The notes beneath the pieces were generated by a model. It searched no databases. It saw nothing but the letters and a program-made list of their open reading frames with translations, and was not told where the DNA came from. From Bacteroidales bacterium (GTDB lineage Bacteria > Bacteroidota > Bacteroidia > Bacteroidales > UBA932), in assembly GCA_017548445.1 (NCBI GenBank), contig JAFYZZ010000010.1:1-11495 (forward strand): a stretch of DNA of 11,495 bases, written 5' to 3'. Positions 1-11,495 of this stretch are shown here, piece by piece; position 1 is the first letter of the stretch; each line of letters opens with the position of its first letter. The position numbers and the translations under genes are program-made.

Positions 1-1047
1 CTCGAACTGCAGCTCGCGGCCGCCGTTGAAGAAGAAGGTCACGTGGGCGTATTTCTCCGTCTCGGCGATGCGCAGCTGGCGCTTGCCGGCCTTGGAGACC
101 GTCTCGCCCAGGGTGTCGTTCACCAGCTCCTTGTCGAAGAGAATGTGTACGCCGGTGAAGGAGGCGTCGTAGGGCGTGAGGCAGCAGTAGTAGAGCGGAA
201 TGGTGTGCATCCCCTCTTCCGGCATATCCTTCTGCGTGAGGACGGTGGTCAGCTCACGCGCGCGATCGTTGCGGAAGTTGTAGAAGATGATAGCGTCGCC
301 TTCCTCCACCTTCGCGAGCGGAGCGCCGGCGGCGTCGGTGATCACGATGGGTTTCACGAACTCGTCGGTCACGTCGGCGTCATAGGACGCCTGGATGCCC
401 TCGAGCGCGGAAGTGAATGCGGCGCCCTTGCCTTCCACGAGCAGGTCGTATGCCTCTTTCACGCGGTTCCAGCGCTTGTCGCGGTCCATCGCATAGAAAC
501 GGCCGCAGACCGTGGCGATCTTGCCGGTAGTCTCCGCCATCTTCTGCTCCAGCTCCTCAAGGAAGCCCTTGCCGCTGCGCGGGTCGGTGTCGCGGCCGTC
601 CATAAAGGCGTGCACATACACCTTGTCCAGGCCATATTCCTTCGCTACGCGCAGGAACTCGTACACGTGCTCCAGCGAGGAGTGCACGCCGCCGTGGGAG
701 GTCAGGCCCATCAGGTGGAGCTTCTTGCCGGAGGTCTTCACATAGTCATAGACCGCCTTGATCTCCTTGTTTTCCAAATACTTATGGTCGCGGACGGCCA
801 TATTGATCTTCACGAGGTCCTGGTAGACCACGCGGCCGGCGCCGAGGTTCATATGGCCGACTTCGGAGTTGCCCATCTGTCCGTCCGGGAGGCCGACGTA
901 TTCGCCGCAGGCCTGCAGGTGACCATAGGGATATTTCTCGCGCAGGGCGTCGATCGTCGGCGTTCCCTGCGCCCAAATCGCGTTGGAATAATCGTGTCTG
1001 CCCTCGCCCCAACCGTCGAGGATCATCAGAAGTACTTTTCTGTTCAT
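1..1047 (-). CDS. gpmI: 2,3-bisphosphoglycerate-independent phosphoglycerate mutase, N-terminal part (cut by window edge)
   Basis: This cytoplasmic glycolytic/gluconeogenic enzyme interconverts 3- and 2-phosphoglycerate using two Mn2+ ions and a phosphoserine intermediate. The protein opens with the family hallmark LMILDGWG (residues 7-14). It has the catalytic serine in GNSEVGH (Ser61), then HAFMDGRD and [12 protein letters not shown]. The window holds 349 codons of a protein usually just over 500 residues long, so roughly the last 160 residues, including the remaining metal ligands, lie outside. I chose the ATG at 1047 (MNRKVLL) because it puts the catalytic serine at the usual position. 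An in-frame ATG at 1056 (MLDMNRK) lies only 4 nt after the upstream stop and is a real alternative. Neither has a Shine-Dalgarno sequence. The gene follows the M3 peptidase closely, so it is probably co-transcribed with it. The family assignment is secure. Confidence 0.96.
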
Positions 1048-1060
1048 ATCAAGCATTGTT

Positions 1061-3061
1061 TTAGTCAGTTAAACCCCGGCCGCGGAGCATAGCGGCGGAG
1101 TCCGGCTCGCGGCCGGCGAAGCTCTTGTAGAGCGTCATCGGCTCCTCGCTGCCACCCTTTTCCAGGAAGGTTTCCTTGAATTTCTTCGCCAGTTCCAGGT
1201 CATACGGTCCGTCCGGCGAGGCGGCGAAGATGCTGAAGGCATCCTTGTCCAGCACCTCGGCCCACAGGTAGCCGTAGTAGCCCGCGGCATAGCCGCTGGA
1301 GAAGATGTGGTTGAAGTAGGTCGAGCGGTAACGGTAGGTGATTTCCGGAATCAGCCCGATCTCTTCGGCGATCTGCTTCTCGAAGGCGTCGATGTCCACG
1401 CCCTTGGTGCTCTCCAGCTCGTGCCAGCGCATATCCAGGATGGACGCGGCGCAGAGTTCGGTGGTCATAAAGCCCTGGTTGAACTTCTTGGCGTTCAGGA
1501 TCTTCTGCACCAGTTCCTCCGGGATGGATTCGCCGGCGGCGTTCTTCGCATATTGGGCCAGCAGCGAAGGCTGGAAGGCCCAGTTCTCGTTGAACTGCGA
1601 GAACATCTCCACGAAGTCGCGGGTGACGTTGGTGCCGCTCACCGAAGGATAATGGCACTGGGTGAGCAGGCCGTGCAGGGCGTGGCCGAACTCGTGGAAG
1701 GTGGTCTCCACCTCGTCGATGGTCAGATAGTCGTCGGAGAAGTTGCAGACGTTCACGATAATCGGGCGGACTTCCTTTCCGTCGGCATCGAAATACTGCT
1801 CGCGGACGTTGTTCATCCAGGCGCCGCCGCGCTTGCTCGGGCGGGGCTTGTAGTCGGTGGTGAAGATGCCCAGCAGCGAACCGTCCGCCGCGGTGACCTT
1901 GTAGGTGCGCACCTGCGGGTTGTACACAGGCACGTCTTTCAGTTCCTCGAAGTTCACCCCGTACAGGATGTGGGCGTTCTTGAAGATGCCGTTGCGCACG
2001 CTGTCGACCTGGAAATAGGGCTTGGTAAGTTCTTCGTCCAGGTCGTATTTGGCTTTGCGGACCTTCTCGGCGTAATACCACCAGTCCCAGGGCTCGATCT
2101 TCGAACCGGCCGGGAGCTTGCCCTCCTTCACTTCTGCGTCCATCACGGCCTGCATATCGGCAAGTTCCTCCCTGGCTTTCGCCACCGAAGCCTTCATAAT
2201 GCCGTCCAGGAAGGCGTCCACCGTCTGCGTGTCGCCCGCCATCTTGTTGGCCAGGATGTAGGCCGCGGCGTTCGGATAGCCCAGGATCTTCGCCTTCTCG
2301 GCACGCAGGTCCAGCACCTCCAGCAGCAACTGGCGGTTGTCGTACTCGTTGCCGCGGTGGCCGCGGGAGGTATAGGCCTCGTTGTACTGACGGCGGAGTT
2401 CGCGGTCTTCGGTGGAGGTCATCTTGTCGGGATAGGCGGCCACGCTGAAGCCGAACCTGTCCAGGAAATCGTTGGACTCGGCCAGGATGTTGTTGCCGAT
2501 CTTCTGCGTCTTGGCGGCGATGTCGGCGTTGATCTGGCGCAGGCGCGTCTGCTGCTCCTCAGGCAGGCCGATGCCCTCACGCTCGAAGCTCTCGAAGGTC
2601 TTCTTCAAGACCATCTGCTGCTCGCGCGTCAGGCCGCTCTGGTCGCCGTTGTACACGGCCGCAACGCGGTTGTAGAGCGCCTTGTTGAAGGAAATGTTGT
2701 TGCTGTGCTCGCTCATCAGCGGGATGGCCTTCTCCTCGACGGCTTCCAGCGCGTCGGTGCGGTCGGTTTCAGTGACGTTGTAGAAAACGCCGGTCACCTT
2801 GGCGAGCAGGCGGCCGGAGAGCTCCAGCGCCGCGATGGTGTTTTCGAAGGTCGGGGCGTCGGGATTCTCCGTGATCGCGTCGATCTCGGCGGTCTGTTCC
2901 TTGATGCCGGCCTCGATGGCAGGCAGATAGTCTTCGGGAAGGATCTTCTCATAAGGAGGGATGCCGTACGGCGTATCCCACTCCGTAAAGAACGGATTCG
3001 TGCGTTTCTGGCAGGCGGTCATAGCAAGGATGATGGCTGCGAGGGTAAAAACTCTTTTCAT
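1061..3061 (-). CDS. dcp: M3-family zinc metallopeptidase lipoprotein (peptidyl-dipeptidase Dcp-like)
   Basis: This is a 666-residue thimet-oligopeptidase-family (M3) peptidase that hydrolyses short peptides. The zinc site is visible as HEFGH (His456, Glu457, His460) with the third ligand Glu485 in DFVEMFSQ, 29 residues after the first His as in characterised M3 enzymes. Near the C-terminus, [16 protein letters not shown] (585-600) carries the substrate-binding His and Tyr cluster; its spacing fits Dcp better than thimet oligopeptidase. Unlike cytoplasmic E. coli Dcp, it has a short signal peptide and a lipobox-like MTAC with Cys17, so it should be a lipid-anchored envelope enzyme. Met at position -3 of the lipobox is atypical. 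The residues after the Cys (QKRT) lack the acidic surface-export signal, so a periplasm-facing location is more likely. Its ATG abuts the stop of the EEP gene (TAAATG), suggesting translational coupling. The M3 assignment is firm; the dcp symbol is less so. Confidence 0.93.
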
Positions 3062-4123
3062 TTATTGTTGACTGATAATAATATACGTAGGGTAATGGTC
3101 GGAATAGCCGTTCAGGAACTGTCCGCCGGAGAAGGTCCGCAGCGGCGTGCCGGCGTAGCGGCCGTCCTGCTGCGTCAGGAAGGGTTTGTCGAAGACATAG
3201 CCGTAGTGGAAGGCGTCGCTCTTGCAGATGCCGTAGCCGGCAGCCGGGCTCGCAAGGGCCCTGTTCACGAGGATCACGTCGTAGATGTTCCACTCGCCGT
3301 GATACTCCTGCGAGCCGAAGCCGTCCTTGTGCATACGCAGGAACGGGGAGAAAAAGTCGCCCTCCCCCACTTCCTCGATCCTCTCGCGGCCGTGCAGGTA
3401 CACGGACATACTCTTGTCCTCCGGATTGTCGTTCATATCACCCATCACGACGATCTTGATGCCGGGATGACGACGCTCCTGGTCCATCGCGTCCGCATAG
3501 ACGATCTCCGCCCCGCGGCACCGCAGGTCCTCCCCCTTGTCGCCCGAGCGGGACGGCAGATGGAGGACGTAGAAGCCGAACATCTCGCCCCCCAGGCGGC
3601 CGCGAACGAACAGGGCGTCGCGCGTCTTGAAGGAGCGCTGCTCCTGCGGGGTCTTCTCGAAGACGATGTCGGAATTGAAATCGAACGGCAGCGCGTAGGA
3701 CTCCAGCAGTTCGAAATCAGCCGGCCGGTAAAGCAGCGCACAGTCGATGCCGCGCACGTCCGGGCTCTCGTAATGCACGAAACGGTAGCCCTCGGCGGCA
3801 ATCTCGCTGCAGGCGGTCAGGTCGCGCAGCACGCGCTCATTCTCCACCTCGGCCAGACCCAGCACGGCGTGCGGGCGGCCGTTTTCCTGCGCCATCGCCC
3901 GGATGACCGAGGCGATGTTGGAAAGCTTCTTCGCGTATTTGTCCTGCGTCCAGTTGTTCTCCCCTTCCGGCAGGAAAGGCTGGTCGCTCTTGCCGCGGTC
4001 GTGCTCGGTGTCGAAGAGGTTCTCCACATTGTAGAAACCGATGACATAGGCATCCTCCGGCACCCGGGTCACACAGGAAACCAGGATTACGACAAGGCAG
4101 AAAAACAAAAACAGTTTCTTCAT
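3062..4123 (-). CDS. Endonuclease/exonuclease/phosphatase (EEP) family lipoprotein
   Basis: This is a 353-residue Mg2+-dependent phosphodiesterase/phosphatase fold of the DNase I / exonuclease III superfamily. Its motifs, in order, are: GFYNVENLFD (29-38, metal-site Asn); LAEVEN (90-95, metal-site Glu); RGIDCALLYR (124-133); LHLPSR with His188; GDMNDNP (228-234, Asp/Asn pair); and SDHYP with the catalytic Asp342-His343. The start at 4123 gives MKKLFLFF followed by a hydrophobic stretch and the lipobox LVSC (Cys17). An upstream in-frame ATG at 4180 would add 19 residues that overlap the previous gene and spoil the signal peptide, so I rejected it. It begins 10 nt after the NUC gene and ends directly against the M3 gene. 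The substrate cannot be read from the sequence because the superfamily includes nucleases and phosphoester phosphatases. Its place next to a nuclease suggests nucleic acid or oligonucleotide breakdown in the periplasm. Confidence 0.9.
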   Translation of the reverse strand: MKKLFLFFCLVVILVSCVTRVPEDAYVIGFYNVENLFDTEHDRGKSDQPFLPEGENNWTQDKYAKKLSNIASVIRAMAQENGRPHAVLGLAEVENERVLRDLTACSEIAAEGYRFVHYESPDVRGIDCALLYRPADFELLESYALPFDFNSDIVFEKTPQEQRSFKTRDALFVRGRLGGEMFGFYVLHLPSRSGDKGEDLRCRGAEIVYADAMDQERRHPGIKIVVMGDMNDNPEDKSMSVYLHGRERIEEVGEGDFFSPFLRMHKDGFGSQEYHGEWNIYDVILVNRALASPAAGYGICKSDAFHYGYVFDKPFLTQQDGRYAGTPLRTFSGGQFLNGYSDHYPTYIIISQQ

Positions 4124-4133
4124 CTTCCGGATT

Positions 4134-5564
4134 CTAATGGTTCCACCACCAGGCTGCGTCGGCGGGATTCTGTTCCTCAACGGTCTTCTGGATATCGGCA
4201 GGCAGATTCACGAAAAAGTCCACGCCCACCTTCTCTTCCAGCTTGTCGATGCTCAGGGCCATCGACTTCTGGATACTTGTGGCCTTGTTCTCCACATTGT
4301 CGAACCAGAAGGCGGCCGCGCTGTAATTCTGGTTCTTGTCGCGCCGCAACAGGGCCTTGTAATACCCCGTCGGCACGGTGACGCGCTTGCCGTCGGCGTC
4401 GAGGACGTATTTGTCGCTGCCCTTGACGGTGCAGCCGGTCACGACATAGAGCGTGTCTGTGTCCGCGTGCTTCGCCCAGTCGCGCACCTTCCCTTCCAGG
4501 ATGGCCCAGGCGTTGGAATTCAAGCCGTTGTGCTGCGGGGTCATATTGGTGCCGAAGAAGGTCTCCAGGTTCACCCGGTAGCTCCAGCGGTCGGCCGAGG
4601 GAATCTGGTGCCCACGGTCGAACATCCCCGCATTGCCGGCCTTGTAGGCCGTCGGCAGATAGGGCTGCTTGTCGCGTGCGAGAAGCGGGTTGAGTGTGAA
4701 TTTCTCCGTCCGTTCACCGGTACCGATGTTGCCTGCGCAAAGCGGATAGGCCACCCAGGAAGATACGAGGTGGTCATAATCCCAATAGGCGGCGTAGTTG
4801 CGGCTTCCGTCGGGGAAGGAGTGGATCAGCAGGTCCTGCCCGTCGGAAGCGGAAGTGGCCGGGAGTTCCAGCCAGCCGGCGCTTGTCGAGGGAACTTTCC
4901 TGCCGAGCTTGTAACTGCCCGCCGTCTTGGAGACGAAATACGCGGGCGTCGTGCCGCCGGCCTCGATGGTGCCGTTGTATTCGCTGCGGAGCGTCATCAT
5001 CGTCACCGTGTCGCCCACTTTCAGGCCCAGTTTGGAGAAAGACTGGTCGTTGGAGCCGACCTGCTTCTCGCAGAGGCCATAGACATACACGAAACCCGTG
5101 TCGTCCACGAGGAAGAAATTGCCGTATTCCTCATTCTCGATGGAAGCGATTTCGCCCGTCAGCTTGTACCAGGTGGTCTTGTCCGCCTTCTTTGCGCGGA
5201 AATCCCGGATGGTGAAGCGGGGCGCGCCCGCCTGCGCGACGCTGATCCGGGCCGACTTCTCCCCGGCCACGATGGTCAGGGTCGCCGTCCGCGGAGCCTC
5301 ATCCGGATTCTCCAGCGCGCTGACAATCAGCGTCTGGTAGTTATCGGACGGGCCGCCGGAGGTGGGCGTCACGGTGAGCCAGTCCGCGTCGGAACGCACG
5401 GACCAGTCCTGGTTGGTCAGGAAGGAGACGTCCTGCGGGCCTCCGGCCGCCTCGACGGAGAGCGAGGAAGACAGGACGCTCAGGCTCGGCACGACGGGCT
5501 TGGAGCAGCCTGAAACGAGGAGTCCCAGTATGCAGAACAGGGGGAAAACCTTCAAAACTTTCAT
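4134..5564 (-). CDS. DNA/RNA non-specific endonuclease (NUC family) lipoprotein with BACON and OB-fold domains
   Basis: This 476-residue lipoprotein has the lipobox VSGC (Cys20). Reading in order: a BACON-like beta-sandwich at about 28-112 (DWSV, ADWLTVTPTSGG, ISVAQAG); an OB-fold module at about 115-212 (EYGNFFLVDDTGFVYVYG, KVGDTV, SEYNGTIEAGG); and a Serratia/NucA-type nuclease domain at about 245-470. The nuclease signature DRGHQIPSADR places the general base at His319. TNMTPQ and LNSNAWAILE align with the family's metal ligand (Asn349) and conserved Glu (Glu357), so it should be active with Mg2+ on DNA and RNA. The OB fold resembles those found with YhcR-type sugar-non-specific nucleases and could hold substrate. 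There is no acidic stretch after the lipid Cys, so I infer a periplasm-facing location. It has its own predicted promoter just upstream and leads a tight cluster with the EEP gene (10-nt gap) and the M3 gene. Confidence 0.93.
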   Translation of the reverse strand: MKVLKVFPLFCILGLLVSGCSKPVVPSLSVLSSSLSVEAAGGPQDVSFLTNQDWSVRSDADWLTVTPTSGGPSDNYQTLIVSALENPDEAPRTATLTIVAGEKSARISVAQAGAPRFTIRDFRAKKADKTTWYKLTGEIASIENEEYGNFFLVDDTGFVYVYGLCEKQVGSNDQSFSKLGLKVGDTVTMMTLRSEYNGTIEAGGTTPAYFVSKTAGSYKLGRKVPSTSAGWLELPATSASDGQDLLIHSFPDGSRNYAAYWDYDHLVSSWVAYPLCAGNIGTGERTEKFTLNPLLARDKQPYLPTAYKAGNAGMFDRGHQIPSADRWSYRVNLETFFGTNMTPQHNGLNSNAWAILEGKVRDWAKHADTDTLYVVTGCTVKGSDKYVLDADGKRVTVPTGYYKALLRRDKNQNYSAAAFWFDNVENKATSIQKSMALSIDKLEEKVGVDFFVNLPADIQKTVEEQNPADAAWWWNH

Positions 5565-5570
5565 AACTTA

Positions 5571-5602
5571 CAAAATTATGGTTTTTCCCGGAAGAAAGCA
5601 AA
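5571..5602 (-). promoter_or_regulatory. Predicted Bacteroidota-type promoter for the NUC nuclease gene
   Basis: On the minus strand a -33 element TTTG (5602-5599) is followed by a 20-nt spacer and a -7 element TAATTTTG (5578-5571), which fits the TAnnTTTG consensus of the Bacteroidota primary sigma factor. The spacer length equals that of the receptor promoter in this window. Only 6 nt separate the -7 element from the ATG at 5564, so the transcript would be leaderless or nearly so. The -33 element is the end of the T-tract of the upstream terminator. This is motif-based only. Confidence 0.6.
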
Positions 5603-5635
5603 AAAAGGAGCCTGCTCGTAACGGGCAGGCTCCTT
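5600..5635 (-). terminator. Rho-independent terminator after the OB/BACON lipoprotein gene
   Basis: There is a perfect 11-bp inverted repeat (5605-5615 pairs with 5625-5635) around a 9-nt loop. Inside the loop 5617 can also pair with 5623. Read on the minus strand, the GC-rich stem is followed by a run of seven T (5606-5600, the first two within the stem). On the plus strand no T-run follows the stem, so it acts in one direction. It starts 18 nt after the stop codon at 5654 and should end the receptor/lipoprotein transcript, unless RNA polymerase reads through into the nuclease gene. Confidence 0.9.
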
Positions 5636-5653
5636 CGGGACAATAGATAAATA

Positions 5654-7210
5654 TTATTCAGCAGCCGTGTGGCTCACGTAGAACGCGTTCTTCATCTGGG
5701 GGTTGCCGTTGTAGGAGGTCTTCGGGCCCACCACGGTGATGGTGTCGCCTTCCTTCACACCCAGTTTGGTGAGAAGGTCCTGTCCGGACTGTCCGCTGAG
5801 GACGGGAACCAGGCCGTAGACATAGATCTTGCCGGTAGCGTCCTCGATGTAGAAGTTGCCGTACTTGTTGTACTTGGTGTCATCGTTCTTGTCCATCACT
5901 ATGCCGCTCACCGTACCGGTGACCATAAACAGGTCGGAACCGTCCTCAAGAGCGTTGAACTTCTCGCAGGAGATGGGGGTGACGGAGGTGTGCTCCACAT
6001 AGTAGGCGTTCTTCATCTGAGGGTTGCCGTTGTAGGAGGCTTTCGGGCCCACCACGGTGAGGATGTCACCCTCCTTGATGCCCTTGGCCGTGAGCACGTC
6101 CTGGCCCGACTCGCCGCCGGCCTCGGGAAGGAGGCCATAGACATAAGCCCTGCCGGTCTCGTCGTTCAGGTAGAAGTTGCCGAACTTGTTGTACTTGGTG
6201 GCGTCGTTCTTGTCCATCACGATGCCGGTCACCACACCCTTGAGACGATACAGGGCGCTGCCGTCCTCGAGGGCGTTGAAGTCGCCGGCCACGATCTCGA
6301 CGATGGAACCGGTCTGGGCAAGGGCCTGCTGGCAGCTGTAGTCCTTCTTGCCGTCGGTAGTCTTGAAGGTGATGGTCGTCTCACGGTCGCCGCCGTTATT
6401 CGGAGCGGCGAAGAAGGTCACGGTGTTGCCCGCGAGCGAGGCGATGGACAGCCAGCTCTTGGCGTCCTCGGGGATCTCGACATACACGCCGTTACCCTTG
6501 TTGGCAAGCGTGACGGTGAAGTTGCCGCCTTCGATAGGCAGAACGGCATCCTCAGGATCGATGGAATCCACCTTGATGAGGGACTTGTTGATCTTGAGCA
6601 CGGTCACGTCCACGAGCTCGACCGTACCGTTGTAAGTAGTCTTCGGACCCTCGACGGTGATCTCGTCACCGACCTCGAGGCCCCAGCTCAGGAAGTTCTT
6701 CGTGTTGCCCTTGGAGTCGAGCGTACCGTAGATGTACACCTCGCCGGTGCCGTCGTTCAGGTACCAGTTGCCGTAGGTGGTGTTGACGATGCTCGTGACG
6801 GTACCGGTGACGCGGTAGGTCTTGCTGTCCGGACCCGCCAGGATCTCGGCGCAGGTGGCCGGGGATACGCTGGCGATACCCTGGATGACGTTGATGCGCT
6901 GCACGGCGCCGTTGCATTCCAGCAGGATCTCGGCGGTACGGCCTTCGGCGGCGTCCGCGGAGAAGGTGATCGTGTTCTCACCGGCGGCGCCGGAGAGCGG
7001 GCTGACCGTCAGCCAGGCAGGAGCGCCGGAGACGGACCAGGCGTAGCCCGACTTGACCGTGATGGGGGTGGAACCGCCGGACACGGGCAGGGAGACATAC
7101 GAGGAAGACACCTGGATCTCGCTCAGATAGTGGGATCCCTCTTCTTTCTGGCAGCCTGCCAGGACGGCGAGGGCTGCAACCAGGGAAGCGAAAATATATT
7201 TGGCTTTCAT
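5654..7210 (-). CDS. Surface lipoprotein with two BACON domains and three OB folds; probable nucleic-acid or other ligand binder
   Basis: This 518-residue protein has no catalytic motif. It has a signal peptide and lipobox LAGC (Cys20), followed at once by QKEE. That resembles the K-(D/E)-(D/E) lipoprotein export signal described for Bacteroidota surface lipoproteins, so the protein is likely exposed outside the cell. Domains in order: BACON 1 (about 31-113; AWSV, PAWLTVSPLSG, INVIQG); OB 1 (about 116-207); BACON 2 (about 213-300; AKSWLSI, CQQALAQTG); OB 2 (about 302-408); OB 3 (about 410-515). Each OB repeats the pattern YGNxYLxDxTGxxYVYG, then EGDxxTVxGPKxxYNG. OB 2 and OB 3 are a tandem copy. 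The same BACON-OB pair occurs at the N-terminus of the neighbouring nuclease. It starts 15 nt after the receptor gene, so it probably acts as the receptor's partner lipoprotein in the position SusD would occupy elsewhere. Nucleic acid is my preferred ligand, by inference from the OB folds and neighbours; it is not shown. Confidence 0.85.
   Translation of the reverse strand: MKAKYIFASLVAALAVLAGCQKEEGSHYLSEIQVSSSYVSLPVSGGSTPITVKSGYAWSVSGAPAWLTVSPLSGAAGENTITFSADAAEGRTAEILLECNGAVQRINVIQGIASVSPATCAEILAGPDSKTYRVTGTVTSIVNTTYGNWYLNDGTGEVYIYGTLDSKGNTKNFLSWGLEVGDEITVEGPKTTYNGTVELVDVTVLKINKSLIKVDSIDPEDAVLPIEGGNFTVTLANKGNGVYVEIPEDAKSWLSIASLAGNTVTFFAAPNNGGDRETTITFKTTDGKKDYSCQQALAQTGSIVEIVAGDFNALEDGSALYRLKGVVTGIVMDKNDATKYNKFGNFYLNDETGRAYVYGLLPEAGGESGQDVLTAKGIKEGDILTVVGPKASYNGNPQMKNAYYVEHTSVTPISCEKFNALEDGSDLFMVTGTVSGIVMDKNDDTKYNKYGNFYIEDATGKIYVYGLVPVLSGQSGQDLLTKLGVKEGDTITVVGPKTSYNGNPQMKNAFYVSHTAAE
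5666..6280 (-). repeat. Tandem intragenic duplication of an OB-fold module (two units, 321-bp period)
   Basis: Unit 1 is 6280-5987 (residues 311-408) and unit 2 is 5959-5666 (residues 418-515). Both begin FNALEDGS, carry IVMDKND, TKYNK and GNPQMKNA in the same places, and end near YV.HT. By hand count about 70 of 98 residues are identical, and long stretches also match at the DNA level, for example around 5690-5760 against 6011-6081. The period is exactly 107 codons. OB 1 and the OB of the nuclease lack the DKND..TKYNK insertion, so the duplication is younger than the split between these modules. Confidence 0.9.
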
Positions 7211-7225
7211 ATGGATGTCCGTTTA

Positions 7226-10200
7226 TTAGTTGAACAGATACTTGAGACCGATGGAAGCATACCAGCACTGGCCGATACCGTGATTGTAGGTCCAGGTCTG
7301 GGTGTTGCCGCTGATGGCGGGGTTCGTGGAGAAGGTCGCGTAACCGTCGGCGTCGACGCCTTCGAACTTGAGGATGCGGGCGTCGGAACCGATGGCCGGG
7401 TTGAGGTACTTGCTCACGCCCCAGCTGGAGTTGAACAGGTTCAGCAGGTTCTTGATGTCGACGTTCAGCTGCAGGGTGTTGGTGGAGCTGCCGATCTTCA
7501 CGGTGAAGTCGTGCTTGTAGCTGAAGTCCACGCGGTGCACCCACGGGGAGTACACGGCGTACGGCTCGGCGTACTGGCCCTGATGCTTGCTCAGGTACTT
7601 GTCGGCGTGCACGTAATCCATAAAGCGGACGGCGTCGTCGTTGGAGACGAAGCGGAACTGGTTGGAAGAAACCTCCGCGTCGGTCGGGATGTACAGGGCA
7701 TCGTAGTTGTAACCGTCGCCGTTCATATCGTTCAGCATCATATAGGAGTAGTTGTAACCGCCGCGCCAGGTCTCATAGATCAGGCTGAAGTGGTTGCCGC
7801 TCCTGTCGTCGTGGGTCGCGGAGACGACCACGCGGTCCGGCGTCATATACTGGGAGTTGTGGATCGGAATGTAGTTCGGACCCTCGGCCGTCGGCACATA
7901 GGTGAAGGCGGACTCGGCGTCGGAACCCGGCATACCGGTGACTTCCTTGGAGACGGAGTGCGTGTAGGCCGCCATCAGGCTCAGGCCCTCGACGGGACGG
8001 GCGTTGAGGGTGACGCTGGCGGACCAGCCGTAACCCTTGCTGGTGTTCTCCAGCACGAACGCCTTGGTGTTGTTGCGGTAACCGGCAGGATAGATCGGAC
8101 GGTTGTCCACGCCGTTGAAGCGGGCGTATCCGCCCACGTTCGGCATACTCCAGTCGCACACGGACACCGCGTTGACCGTCTTGTTGTAGATACCTTCCAC
8201 ACCGATGGACATCGGGAAGGAGGTCGGGAAGGAATAATCCACGGCCAGGGAGGTCTTCCAGACCTGCGGCATACGGAATTTCGGATTGATGGCAGCGATG
8301 CTGCTCGGGACGGTGCCGTCTTCAGGCTTGACGGTGCTGGGATAACCCAGGCCGATGAGTTTCTGGAGCAGGGCGTCGATCGTGGCATTGCCGCTGGCGT
8401 CGGTCACGAGACCGCCGTTGAAGGTATCCATCGAGAACCCGTTCTTCGCGGCGTTCTTGGCATTGATCTCGGCGCGGTACTGCACCAGACCGCCGTTGGT
8501 AGGCATATTGGTGAAGAACACCAGAGGCAGACGGCCGGAGAACAGGCCGGTACCGCCGCGGACCTTCAGGCTCTTGTCACCCAGGACGTCCCAGTTGAAA
8601 CCGACGCGCGGGGACACGGTCACCTTGGCGGTAGGCCACTTGCCGGTGTCGATGTGCTGCTCGGTATAGTCGTAGGTCTTGGGATAATAGTTCAGCTTGT
8701 AGATGGCGGCGTTCGTCATCAGGTCGTTGTTGTTGAAGAACAGACCGTCCAGGCGCACGCCGGCGGTGAGCTTGAAGCGGTCGCTGACGTTCCACTCGTC
8801 CTGGCCGTAGATGCCCGCCTTGTAGAAGCGGACGGCGGCGGCGGGACGCTGCTCCCCGTCATAACCGTAGGTCAGGGTAACGATCTCCGGGGTGGCGCCG
8901 TTGAGGAAGTCGCTCACGGAATCGTAACGGTAGTAACCCGTACCCTCACGCATATAGTGGTTGTCGGCCAGCTGGTACTCGAGGCTGGCACCGGCGGTAA
9001 TCTTGTGGTCGCCGGCGTAGTAGGTCAGGTCGTCCTTGATGTTGATGTTGACCTCGTTCACGGAGTTGGTCCAGGTGAAGAGCTCGTAACCGAGGGCCAT
9101 ATAGATGTTCGGGGTGGCGCCTTCGGCACGGATGTCGCCGTCCAGGATGTCGATGAACGGGAACTCGGCGGAGTTGCTGCCGCGCACCGGATTCTCGACC
9201 TTGGAGTAAGTGGCGAGGAACTGGTTGGACAGACGGTCGCTCAGGCGGCTGTTCAGGTCCAGGGACCAGGTGCTCACGCTGTTGCGGTTGGAATACATCG
9301 AATTCGCGAAGGACATTGAGTATTGGGACATACGGGCGCCGGCCATACGGGTGCCGCCGTCCATCGAGGATGCGTTCGGGCTGTTCCAGGAGTTGTTCAA
9401 CGTGTAATTGTAACGCAGGGCCAGATGGTGCTTGTCGTTGATGTTCCAGTCGATGCGGGCAAGGAGCTTGGTGTTGTTCTCGTTGGCCGGGAAGTCGGTC
9501 CAGGAACCGGTGTCATAGCCATACTTGCTCTTGACGAAGTCGGAGACGCGCTGCAGGTCGGTCAGGGTGGTACGGGAAATGTAGTTGTCCGCATCGGCCT
9601 TGCCGTTGGTGGAACCGCGCCAGCGGTTCACGACGGTCGGGACCATCGACTGCTCCGCATTCACGAAGAAGAAGAGTTTGTTCTTGACGATCGGGCCGCC
9701 CAGGGTGAAACCGTAGGTGGTGTTGCGGTCCTTCTCGCGGGCCCCGCCGATCTGCTCGCCGTCCACGGTGTCGCCGCGCATATTCTCATTGCGGTGATAG
9801 ATGTAGGCGGTACCCTTGAAGGTGTTGGTACCGGACTTGGTGATGGCGTTCACGCCGCCGCCGATGAAGTTGGTCTGGCGGACGTCATACGGCGAGATCA
9901 CGACCTGCATCTCCTCGATGGCGTCGATGGAGATCGGGCTGCCGCCGCCGACGAGACCGCCGGAGAGGCCGAAGTTGTTGTTGAAGTTGGCACCGTCGAC
10001 GGTGAAGTTGGCGGTACGAGGGTCCGCACCCGCGAAGGTCATTCCGTTGCCGCCGTAAGGGGACAGACGGGTGACATCGGTAATGCTGCGGCTCACGGTA
10101 GGAACGGCGGCGATCTGGGTGCTGTTGATGTTGGTGGCAGCGCCGGTCTTCTCCGTGGCGAACTTGGAAGAAGCCGTGGAGATGATGATCGCTTCGCTCA

Positions 10201-10549
10201 GCATCTCGGTGTCGTCGGACATCGTGGCGTCGAGGGCGTAAGGCTCAGCGAGCTGGAGGGTGATGTCCGTGTAGGTGACGCTGTTGAAGCCCAGGCAGCT
10301 GACCTCGACGGTGTAGGGACCGCCGGCACGCATACCGTTGATGAAGTAACGGCCCTCCTCGTTGGCAACCGCATAATACTGCGTGCCGGACGGCGTGTGG
10401 ACCGCGACGACTGCCGCGCCGGCGACGGGCTCACCCTTCTTGTCGACGATCTTGCCGTTCAGGGAGGAGGTGGTCACCTGCGCAAAAGCAGACACAACAA
10501 AAAGCATTGCCGCGAAAGACAGCAATAAACTCTTGATGGTTTGTTTCAT
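7226..10549 (-). CDS. Oar-like TonB-dependent outer-membrane receptor with N-terminal carboxypeptidase-regulatory-like domain
   Basis: This is a 1107-residue outer-membrane beta-barrel. It has a cleavable signal peptide (about 1-23, VVSAFA then Gln24) and a carboxypeptidase D regulatory-like beta-sandwich (about 28-110; LNGKIVDKKGEPVAGAAVVA, GRYFINGMRAGGPYTV). The plug follows at about 135-240 (ITDVTRLSPYGGNGM, RTANFTVDGANFNN, GGGVNAITKSGTN), then the barrel, ending in a strand with a Phe-Asn terminus (GLKYLFN). NLFNSSWG near the C-terminus and the overall layout match Oar-type receptors rather than classical SusC, and no susD-like gene follows. No clear TonB box is visible; SEAIIIS around 118-124 is a possible one. 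Receptors of this class usually import large ligands, but Myxococcus Oar is needed to secrete the protease PopC, so direction is open. It leads the minus-strand cluster behind its own promoter, with the OB lipoprotein 15 nt downstream. Confidence 0.93.
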   Translation of the reverse strand: MKQTIKSLLLSFAAMLFVVSAFAQVTTSSLNGKIVDKKGEPVAGAAVVAVHTPSGTQYYAVANEEGRYFINGMRAGGPYTVEVSCLGFNSVTYTDITLQLAEPYALDATMSDDTEMLSEAIIISTASSKFATEKTGAATNINSTQIAAVPTVSRSITDVTRLSPYGGNGMTFAGADPRTANFTVDGANFNNNFGLSGGLVGGGSPISIDAIEEMQVVISPYDVRQTNFIGGGVNAITKSGTNTFKGTAYIYHRNENMRGDTVDGEQIGGAREKDRNTTYGFTLGGPIVKNKLFFFVNAEQSMVPTVVNRWRGSTNGKADADNYISRTTLTDLQRVSDFVKSKYGYDTGSWTDFPANENNTKLLARIDWNINDKHHLALRYNYTLNNSWNSPNASSMDGGTRMAGARMSQYSMSFANSMYSNRNSVSTWSLDLNSRLSDRLSNQFLATYSKVENPVRGSNSAEFPFIDILDGDIRAEGATPNIYMALGYELFTWTNSVNEVNINIKDDLTYYAGDHKITAGASLEYQLADNHYMREGTGYYRYDSVSDFLNGATPEIVTLTYGYDGEQRPAAAVRFYKAGIYGQDEWNVSDRFKLTAGVRLDGLFFNNNDLMTNAAIYKLNYYPKTYDYTEQHIDTGKWPTAKVTVSPRVGFNWDVLGDKSLKVRGGTGLFSGRLPLVFFTNMPTNGGLVQYRAEINAKNAAKNGFSMDTFNGGLVTDASGNATIDALLQKLIGLGYPSTVKPEDGTVPSSIAAINPKFRMPQVWKTSLAVDYSFPTSFPMSIGVEGIYNKTVNAVSVCDWSMPNVGGYARFNGVDNRPIYPAGYRNNTKAFVLENTSKGYGWSASVTLNARPVEGLSLMAAYTHSVSKEVTGMPGSDAESAFTYVPTAEGPNYIPIHNSQYMTPDRVVVSATHDDRSGNHFSLIYETWRGGYNYSYMMLNDMNGDGYNYDALYIPTDAEVSSNQFRFVSNDDAVRFMDYVHADKYLSKHQGQYAEPYAVYSPWVHRVDFSYKHDFTVKIGSSTNTLQLNVDIKNLLNLFNSSWGVSKYLNPAIGSDARILKFEGVDADGYATFSTNPAISGNTQTWTYNHGIGQCWYASIGLKYLFN

Positions 10550-10556
10550 AACTGTT

Positions 10557-10572
10557 TGATAATATGATAATA
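10557..10572. repeat. Two tandem copies of an 8-bp unit in the receptor leader
   Basis: TGATAATA occurs twice in a row (10557-10564 and 10565-10572), just upstream of the receptor ATG. It overlaps a small inverted repeat, AATAT-GATA-ATATT (10561-10574). It may only reflect the A/T-rich leaders common in Bacteroidota, which keep the start codon unstructured. Copy number could vary by slippage. No function can be assigned. Confidence 0.4.
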
Positions 10573-10608
10573 TTGAACTTTGTTCAGGCCAGGTTCGAAT
10601 ACGCGGCG

Positions 10609-10640
10609 CAAAGATAGTTCAGTAAAACGAAACGGACAAA
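10609..10640 (-). promoter_or_regulatory. Predicted Bacteroidota-type promoter for the receptor gene
   Basis: On the minus strand TTTG (10640-10637) is followed by a 20-nt spacer and TATCTTTG (10616-10609), matching the -33 / -7 consensus of the Bacteroidota primary sigma factor. It lies about 60 nt upstream of the receptor ATG at 10549, leaving an A/T-rich leader of about 50 nt. It would drive the receptor and the OB lipoprotein up to the terminator at 5635-5600. Confidence 0.75.
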
Positions 10641-10649
10641 CCCTTTCCC

Positions 10650-10680
10650 GTTTTTTTATCAACAATTATTGTTACCTTTG
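10650..10680 (+). promoter_or_regulatory. Predicted promoter for metK
   Basis: The -7 element TACCTTTG (10673-10680) fits TAnnTTTG. The expected -33 position holds only a T-run (10651-10657), not a clean TTTG, so that half is weak. Transcription would begin near 10685-10690, a few nucleotides before the riboswitch stem at 10697. That position supports the call. It lies back to back with the receptor promoter: the two -33 regions are about 10 bp apart. Confidence 0.65.
10661..10673. repeat. Perfect 6-bp inverted repeat in the metK promoter spacer (possible operator)
   Basis: AACAAT, one central T, then ATTGTT. The palindrome sits between the presumed -33 and -7 elements of the metK promoter and touches the first base of the -7 element. 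A DNA-binding protein there would block metK and could also affect the receptor promoter about 20 bp away. It is A/T-rich and short, so chance is a serious alternative. Confidence 0.35.
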
Positions 10681-10696
10681 CAGTCCAAAACAACCC

Positions 10697-10746
10697 ACGA
10701 GGACAGATTTGATTGCTTGCAACCTCGTCAAAAATGCTAAAAAAAG
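10697..10746 (+). promoter_or_regulatory. SAM-II riboswitch in the metK leader
   Basis: A perfect 6-bp stem P1 is formed by ACGAGG (10697-10702) and CCTCGT (10723-10728) around a 20-nt loop. The loop carries GATTTG (10706-10711) and GCTTGCAA (10715-10722). The 3' tail carries an A-run and then ATGCTAAA, with GCTAAA at 10736-10741. These are the conserved elements of SAM-II aptamers, in the right order, spacing and strand: GAUUU and GCUUGC in the loop, then GCUAAA downstream that folds back as an H-type pseudoknot. The tail ends at the metK ATG (10747). SAM binding would therefore be expected to close the translation start, giving feedback control of SAM synthetase by its own product. I did not assign every pseudoknot pair. 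The recognition rests on motif recall, not a covariance search. Confidence 0.88.
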
Positions 10747-11495
10747 ATGAACCACCTGTTTACATCGGAGTCCGTCTCCGAAGGTCATCCCGACAAAGTC
10801 GCCGACCAGATTTCTGATGCCATCCTGGACGAATTCCTCCGGCAGGACCCGGAGGCCAAAGTCGCCTGTGAAACCTTTTGCACCTCCGGCCTGGTGATCG
10901 TGGGCGGCGAGGTCTCTTCCGAGAGCGCTTACGTCGACATCCCCGCAACGGTGCGCCGCGTGATCGCGCGCATCGGCTACACCAAGGCCGAATACGGCTT
11001 CGACGCTGACTCCTGCGGCGTCATCTCCACCATCCACGAGCAGAGCGCGGACATCCACCGCGGCGTCGTGCGCGAAGACCCCGACGGGCAGGGCGCCGGC
11101 GACCAGGGAATGATGTTCGGCTACGCCAGCACCGACACCGAGGAGTATATGCCCCTCGCCCTGTCGCTTTCGCACAAGCTGCTGCAGACGCTCGCCGACA
11201 TCCGCCACAACCACCCGGAACTGATGCCCTACCTCCGCCCGGACGCCAAGGCGCAGTTCACCGTGGAATTCACTGGACGCCGCACCCCGGTGCGCATCCA
11301 CACCATCGTGCTGAGCACGCAGCACGACGAATTCGACACCGACGACGCACGAGCGCGCGCACGGATAGAAAAAGATGTAAGGGAGATCGTCCTCCCCCGC
11401 CTCATAGCCACGCTGCCCGAACGGACGGCGAAGCTCTTCGACGGCAGCTTCATCCTGCACGTCAACCCCACCGGCAAGTTCGTCATCGGCGGCCC
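10747..11495 (+). CDS. metK: S-adenosylmethionine synthase, N-terminal part (cut by window edge)
   Basis: This cytoplasmic enzyme makes S-adenosylmethionine from methionine and ATP. Translation from the ATG at 10747 gives MNHLFTSESVSEGHPDKVAD, with the ATP-site His14, Asp16 and Lys17. It continues with the active-site loop region around HEQSADI (97-103), GDQGMMFGYA (118-127), DAKAQFTVEF (166-175), HTIVLSTQHDEF and NPTGKFVIGG at the edge. The window holds 249 full codons plus two bases of a protein of about 390-430 residues, and the reading frame is still open at 11495. No Shine-Dalgarno sequence precedes the start; the leader ends in an A-run plus G, as is common in Bacteroidota. It is transcribed divergently from the receptor gene and sits directly behind the predicted SAM-II riboswitch, which agrees with its function. 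Confidence 0.98.
   Translation, partial: MNHLFTSESVSEGHPDKVADQISDAILDEFLRQDPEAKVACETFCTSGLVIVGGEVSSESAYVDIPATVRRVIARIGYTKAEYGFDADSCGVISTIHEQSADIHRGVVREDPDGQGAGDQGMMFGYASTDTEEYMPLALSLSHKLLQTLADIRHNHPELMPYLRPDAKAQFTVEFTGRRTPVRIHTIVLSTQHDEFDTDDARARARIEKDVREIVLPRLIATLPERTAKLFDGSFILHVNPTGKFVIGG

Follow-up and report, generated by a model that had tools for sequence, protein, structure and literature searches.

A putative TonB-type nucleic-acid capture, digestion, and uptake locus in Bacteroidales, built on an Oar-like receptor and lipoprotein nucleases

The window considered here is the whole of an 11,495-nucleotide stretch of DNA (positions 1 to 11,495, forward strand, of contig JAFYZZ010000010.1, assembly GCA_017548445.1) from a member of the Bacteroidales. 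Its minus strand carries a cluster of genes for an Oar-like outer-membrane receptor, a BACON/OB-fold lipoprotein, a lipoprotein with a non-specific endonuclease domain (NUC), a lipoprotein of the Exo_endo_phos_3 family (EEP), and an M3 peptidase (Table 1). Judged from sequence, this cluster probably encodes a TonB-type outer-membrane system that captures, digests, and takes up nucleic acid. The OB-fold lipoprotein would sit at the cell surface next to the Oar-like receptor and hold DNA or RNA there, and the NUC lipoprotein, which has a similar front end, would cut the held nucleic acid to oligonucleotides. The TonB-driven receptor would bring these fragments across to the periplasm, to be trimmed there by the tethered EEP, probably together with other phosphoesterases; the M3 peptidase may digest protein bound to the nucleic acid. 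An earlier note on this DNA had proposed such a capture and degradation locus: the conserved adjacency of the genes, the OB-fold models, and a related gene pair from Riemerella speak for it, while a basic OB face, a single operon, complete digestion, and an analogy to polysaccharide utilisation loci fared less well. To our knowledge, and judging by PMC8459023, how DNA crosses the outer membrane of Bacteroidota, which are abundant in gut and sea, is largely an open question. Loci of this kind would offer a concrete parts list for DNA import, namely a receptor, an OB-fold binder, an EEP, and, in gut lineages, a NUC.

The four adjacent minus-strand genes from receptor to EEP are present within 3062-10549 with the order, domains, nuclease motifs, and lipobox-like signals (LAG/CQKEEG, VSG/CSKPVV, and LVS/CVTRVP) that the note had claimed. 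The receptor matches PF13620 and the OMP_b-brl_4 barrel, both above cut-off, and thus belongs to the Oar-like receptors. NUC matches PF01223 (Endonuclease_NS, the Serratia nuclease family) above cut-off, and its residues D316-H319 (DRGH), N340, N349, and E357, which we take to be catalytic, align with those of the Serratia nuclease and are invariant among 10 aligned homologues. Likewise, EEP matches PF19580 above cut-off, and its active-site motifs (YNVEN, AEVEN, H187, GDMNDN, and SDH) are invariant among 8 aligned proteins. Both enzymes therefore look catalytically active. The OB domain of NUC has no Pfam match at E<=0.1; it is marked by a purpose-made OB profile to which NUC itself contributed, and a YGN..L.D.TG pattern is common to NUC and the OB lipoprotein. 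In PHROGs, one nuclease family matches NUC and nothing matches the OB lipoprotein; comparison by sequence with solved structures gave no match for EEP. Digestion down to nucleosides and phosphate is less supported, since Pfam gave no nucleotidase for any of the seven proteins encoded in the window.

The gene order is kept in close relatives. A single pattern-based scan of contigs of GTDB species yielded 10 further loci of the window type (nine titled as Bacteroidales and one as Bacteroidia; five of these titles mention the rumen or omasum of buffalo, goat, or yak). The order Oar-lipoprotein-NUC is found in 11/11 window-type loci, the window included, and is for this reason judged to be more than chance. 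EEP is present in 9 of the 11 (locus L004 breaks off after NUC, and at L007 no EEP was detected). The M3 gene lies downstream in 8/10 fetched relatives, the contigs of the other two ending first, and thus travels with the cluster. Taken alone, these loci would be weak evidence, because many share the metK and gpmI flanks. The window type also corresponds to a narrow lineage, since the OB-NUC query was matched over its full length in only 1/119 genomes of an order-level sample (genome G006).

A wider view came from 79 genomes in the family to which G006 belongs, where an OB-NUC profile (E<=1e-20) gave 66 rows in 41 genomes. All 34 places of a strong set (32 genomes, 1.7e-46) were examined for neighbours on the same strand within 5 kb. 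A BACON/OB lipoprotein is found near 31 of these NUC genes, an outer-membrane receptor near 28 (Oar in 12, a PF13620 barrel in 17, one locus having both), an EEP near 18, and a DUF5689 protein near 16. Of the weaker 32 rows, nine fall within fetched stretches: five are OB matches inside loci already counted (L055, L057, and L059), L045 has an OB gene alone, and L098-L100 have NUC genes without partners. For three more (G148, G157, and G203), coordinates alone indicate an EEP no more than 300 nt away, followed at a greater distance by DUF5689 in the same orientation; the other 20 lie outside the neighbourhood counts. Conserved adjacency across Bacteroidota, the most telling of the checks proposed in the note, thus came out in its favour. 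Chance neighbourhood was set aside, as the same partners recur in differing surroundings and in two arrangements. By contrast, no partners were detected in the stretches around the NUC genes of L078-L080, and at L077 a barrel/DUF5689 pair lies about 4 kb off. EEPs in general occur in 73/79 family genomes, and extra copies (L128-L140) lie at other spots, by eye near housekeeping genes. Among the matches listed for the open-access literature, no title or abstract start concerned such nuclease-receptor loci, and DUF5689 is mentioned in one paper of the open-access library searched.

The commonest arrangement is a five-gene operon of gut and other Bacteroidota, lipoprotein-NUC-EEP-PF13620 barrel-DUF5689 lipoprotein (L041-L044, L047, L049, L051, L052, L054, L055, L057, L059, L081-L084, L091, L092, and L095, with L042, L055, and L081 incomplete at the end of a contig or stretch). 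It is also found outside the family (L076 and L101). One locus, L044, unites both kinds as Oar-lipoprotein-NUC-EEP-barrel-DUF5689-M3, and three genomes (G001, G004, and G006) carry a window-type locus as well as the operon, which in G001 is truncated where the contig begins. In a tree built from 66 EEPs, rooted at the midpoint with the EEPs of housekeeping spots mostly on the opposite side, the 8 window-type proteins form one clade (support 100/100) nested among the operon EEPs, within a set of 12 that includes L041-L043 and L051 (99/97). By this tree, the window EEP is a descendant from within the EEPs of the five-gene operon, which suggests that the window locus arose by duplication and exchange of the receptor module. 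Lipid tethering of EEP seems to have arisen in the window-type lineage, because a lipobox-like cysteine is nearly confined to it: the pattern is found in 8/9 window-type EEPs (the ninth, L002, by eye) and in 1/38 others (L095), with L120 added by eye. Two further observations concern the operon and its parts. In L053 and L060 one lipoprotein unites DUF5689 with NUC, the latter as its C-terminal domain, and a RecA-like protein, named by eye, is encoded near the operon at L042 (6472-7578) and L043 (5551-6579).

The last two genes of the operon match a domain pair needed for natural transformation in Riemerella anatipestifer. As reported in PMC8459023, three transposon hits in RA0C_RS04915, which encodes a PF13620 protein predicted to be in the outer membrane, abolished transformation, as did markerless deletion of RS04915 or of RS04920 (DUF5689); in the same source, a protein making single-stranded DNA (ssDNA) is assumed and left unidentified. 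The link drawn here rests on domains, on the model NF052645, and on locus L119, rather than on the sequences of RA0C_RS04915/RS04920 themselves. At L119 (7010-12745; best named homologues from Chryseobacterium), an EEP is divergent from a barrel and a lipoprotein that scores 753 bits against NF052645 ('M949_1556 family'); M949_1556 is given in PMC12566107 as a gene of Riemerella CH3. The lipoprotein of the gut locus L047 reaches E 2e-15 against the same model, under its cut-off. In a phylum sample, the operon-type barrel was found in at least 40/247 genomes, with three candidates scored per genome. Among 20 loci picked by hand from 43 rows, 19 have DUF5689 at most 600 nt from the barrel, and 13 have an EEP, regardless of strand, at most 260 nt from it. 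Five stretches around high-ranking EEP rows that lack a strong NUC (L143-L147) have the barrel in 5/5 and DUF5689 in 2/5. An EEP adjoining the barrel/DUF5689 pair, as in L119, is a candidate for the entry nuclease or ssDNA maker. The EEP is not an obligate neighbour, since five AT-rich loci (L114-L118; L117 7285-11475) have the pair without an EEP beside it. Like the Riemerella pair, the window combines a PF13620 barrel with an adjacent lipoprotein; the DUF5689 part found in lipoproteins of that pair type models as an OB fold. Sister loci in gut and other Bacteroidota share the two domains of the pair, in many cases with an EEP next to them. The window differs from that pair in that its receptor is of the Oar type, its lipoprotein is of the BACON/OB kind, and two lipid-anchored nucleases and an M3 peptidase are present besides. 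By this comparison DUF5689, a family of unknown function, gains an OB-fold, nucleic-acid-binding hypothesis.

The Riemerella data also bear on another explanation, namely that the cluster is a competence module in which long DNA would reach the periplasm through the receptor, NUC and EEP would be the entry nucleases, and a single strand would be handed on by ComEC to be recombined. In its favour, a pair of equal domain make-up is essential for transformation there, a protein making ssDNA is assumed there too, and a beta-beta-alpha DRGH nuclease serves as an entry nuclease in Moraxella (PMC6384898). NUC resembles such enzymes (NucM of Moraxella and, as named there, pneumococcal EndA) in being a DRGH beta-beta-alpha nuclease at the cell envelope, and differs from them in its fusion to BACON-OB, its lipid anchor, and its position beside a TonB-type receptor. 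A ComEC domain is found in 74/79 family genomes and HHH_3 in 77/79; both are too common among these genomes to discriminate, and the presence of competence genes was set aside for this purpose. Open frames of 588-783 codons for ComEC occur in five locus-bearing genomes (G147, G165, G166, G182, and G196), such frames being counted from stop to stop, which overstates length in GC-rich DNA (as in G006). Against a competence module, ComEC measures only 349, 373, 456, and 373 aa at L121, L122, L124, and L125, in locus-bearing genomes (G176, G016, G128, and G186), and in G136 (L126) it is interrupted by a DDE transposase gene; these five genomes carry the five-gene operon or its Oar variant. DUF4131 is missing from ComEC at L121, L122, and L125 and present at L124 and L126; by eye, it is also missing in G006. 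A genome without the locus, G198, has a ComEC of 711 aa with DUF4131, and short open frames for ComEC also occur in genomes without the locus. In addition, non-specific lipoprotein nucleases would be expected to shred transforming DNA. On balance a competence module is fairly unlikely, and the gut carriers seem more likely to use the locus for feeding than for transformation. The main ground for this is the short or split ComEC of the few locus-bearing genomes examined closely; the ComEC evidence as a whole is indirect and mixed. A broader and tentative proposal, which we hold with more doubt than confidence, is that a single ancestral machine of Bacteroidota, consisting of a TonB-driven receptor, an OB-fold lipoprotein, and a dedicated EEP, imports nucleic acid in place of a type IV pilus and secretin. 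NUC would have been part of it in gut lineages, it would serve transformation in Flavobacteriia and feeding in gut Bacteroidales, and the window would be its receptor-swapped duplicate.

As for the binding protein, the lipoprotein model (pLDDT 80.9, pTM 0.45) places it among OB-fold proteins. In a VIA comparison, the clearer of the two made, its modelled OB domains resemble the DNA-binding HIN and RPA domains; Foldseek hits for the whole model are mostly multi-domain superpositions with large rmsd, among which p204 HIN-dsDNA ranks 2nd and 3rd. The residues CQKEE after its lipobox are, presumably, surface-export-like. Comparison of the receptors with solved structures by sequence matched only the N-terminal domain or a plug stretch. 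An order-level sample gave 33 Oar rows, with at most six candidates scored per genome, and 17 places were examined. A type I phosphodiesterase/nucleotide pyrophosphatase adjoins Oar in 4/13 places studied in detail (L062, L063, L067, and L073), which is consistent with nucleotide-related substrates; the remaining detailed places have other neighbours, L064 having a SusD-like gene.

A number of observations weigh against the proposed nucleic-acid system. The three lipoprotein OB domains are acidic (net -4 each, pI 4.5-4.8), as is the whole protein (pI 4.7), and the OB domain of NUC is neutral (net charge 0); these are domain totals rather than values for a local face, and the lipoprotein of the transformation family at L119 is likewise acidic (pI 5.1). 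The basic OB face that the earlier note had suggested looking for is thus less supported. Profile comparison of OB with DUF5689 is weak (probability 12.7), and between the two receptor types the alignment is confined to the N-terminal 4-189. The window has neither DUF5689 (Pfam, E<=0.1) nor the transformation-type barrel. An OB lipoprotein lies beside Oar in 3/17 order-level places (G006, G016, and L061), the other 14 having none; no receptor was detected at 6/34 strong NUC places (L048, L050, L060, L093, L094, and L097), and no EEP lies beside the barrel in 7/20 phylum loci. In Riemerella, tonBA and tonBB mutants lower transformation and a tbfA mutant does not, and the authors attribute the TonB effect possibly to impaired uptake of iron or nutrients (PMC8383284).

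The acidic OB domains would also fit a substrate other than nucleic acid, with BACON and OB binding a glycan or glycoprotein, EEP acting on another phosphoester, and adjacency reflecting shared envelope functions. Carbohydrate-active enzymes have domains that match the BACON part, the M3 peptidase adjoins EEP, and the Oar relative at L064 has the SusD-like neighbour. This explanation is nevertheless very unlikely, as NUC belongs to a nuclease family and keeps its motifs, the OB domains match nucleic-acid binders in the models, and no carbohydrate-active enzyme is found among the Pfam hits of the window. Polysaccharide utilisation loci similarly cluster a TonB-type receptor, a binding lipoprotein, and lipid-anchored enzymes, and the loci described here suggest their nucleic-acid counterpart in gut bacteria. 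As a claim about families the analogy is less supported: the window receptor is of Oar rather than SusC type, and Pfam gave no hit to a SusD-like protein or a carbohydrate-active enzyme in any of the seven proteins encoded there.

The uptake system proposed here is probably transcribed as two units, Oar-OB and NUC-EEP-M3, or with an attenuator in between, because a hairpin with a T run and a promoter match separate the lipoprotein and NUC genes. The window contains 2 matches to TTTG-N17-23-TANNTTTG, which we take to be the Bacteroidota promoter consensus, against 0.04 expected. A site similar to that of Oar starts 97-103 nt before the gene in 6/10 other upstream regions examined, and the site before NUC is matched exactly in 3/11 window-type loci (the window, L001, and L004). 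The window hairpin (5635-5600) is GC-rich and followed by seven T; it was not listed by a simple terminator scan. Folding of the gap, without a shuffle control, predicts a hairpin in 11/11 window-type loci, and 6/11 have a run of at least five T there. A single operon was set aside on these grounds. The separate promoter match before NUC, like the two lipid-anchored nucleases with intact motifs, would suit a role in clearing external DNA or RNA (biofilm DNA, phage DNA, or host DNA traps) beside a receptor for some other substrate. Such clearing is quite unlikely, given that receptors of two types accompany most strong NUC genes of the family and that EEP often lies beside the barrel in the phylum loci.

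Table 1. Features of the window and their positions
Feature	Position	Strand	Remarks
Oar-like outer-membrane receptor	7226-10549	minus	1107 aa; PF13620, OMP_b-brl_4, TonB barrel (Pfam)
BACON/OB lipoprotein	5654-7210	minus	BACON and three OB folds; OB-fold PF01336 (Pfam, own profile, model)
NUC lipoprotein (BACON-OB-NUC; DNA/RNA non-specific endonuclease, DRGH)	4134-5564	minus	BACON, PF01223
EEP lipoprotein (Exo_endo_phos_3; predicted nuclease/phosphoesterase)	3062-4123	minus	PF19580
M3 (Dcp-like) peptidase lipoprotein	1061-3061	minus	Conserved neighbour; Dcp model match under its cut-off
gpmI (partial), housekeeping flank	1-1056	minus	4 nt 3' of the M3 gene
metK (partial), divergent housekeeping flank	10747-11493	plus	5' side of the Oar gene
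Promoter-like match TTTG-N-TANNTTTG	10609-10640	minus	About 60 nt before Oar; presumed consensus
GC-rich hairpin and T run, lipoprotein-NUC gap	5600-5635	minus	Terminator or attenuator candidate; fold prediction
Second promoter-like site	5571-5602	minus	Ends 6 nt before the NUC gene

From Oar to gpmI, the intergenic gaps measure 15, 89, 10, 0, and 4 nt, the M3 gene directly adjoining EEP, for which ATG 4123 is a more likely start than TTG 4180. An M3 peptidase gene also lies 3' of the five-gene operon at L044 (15067-17349) and L051 (13330-15393).
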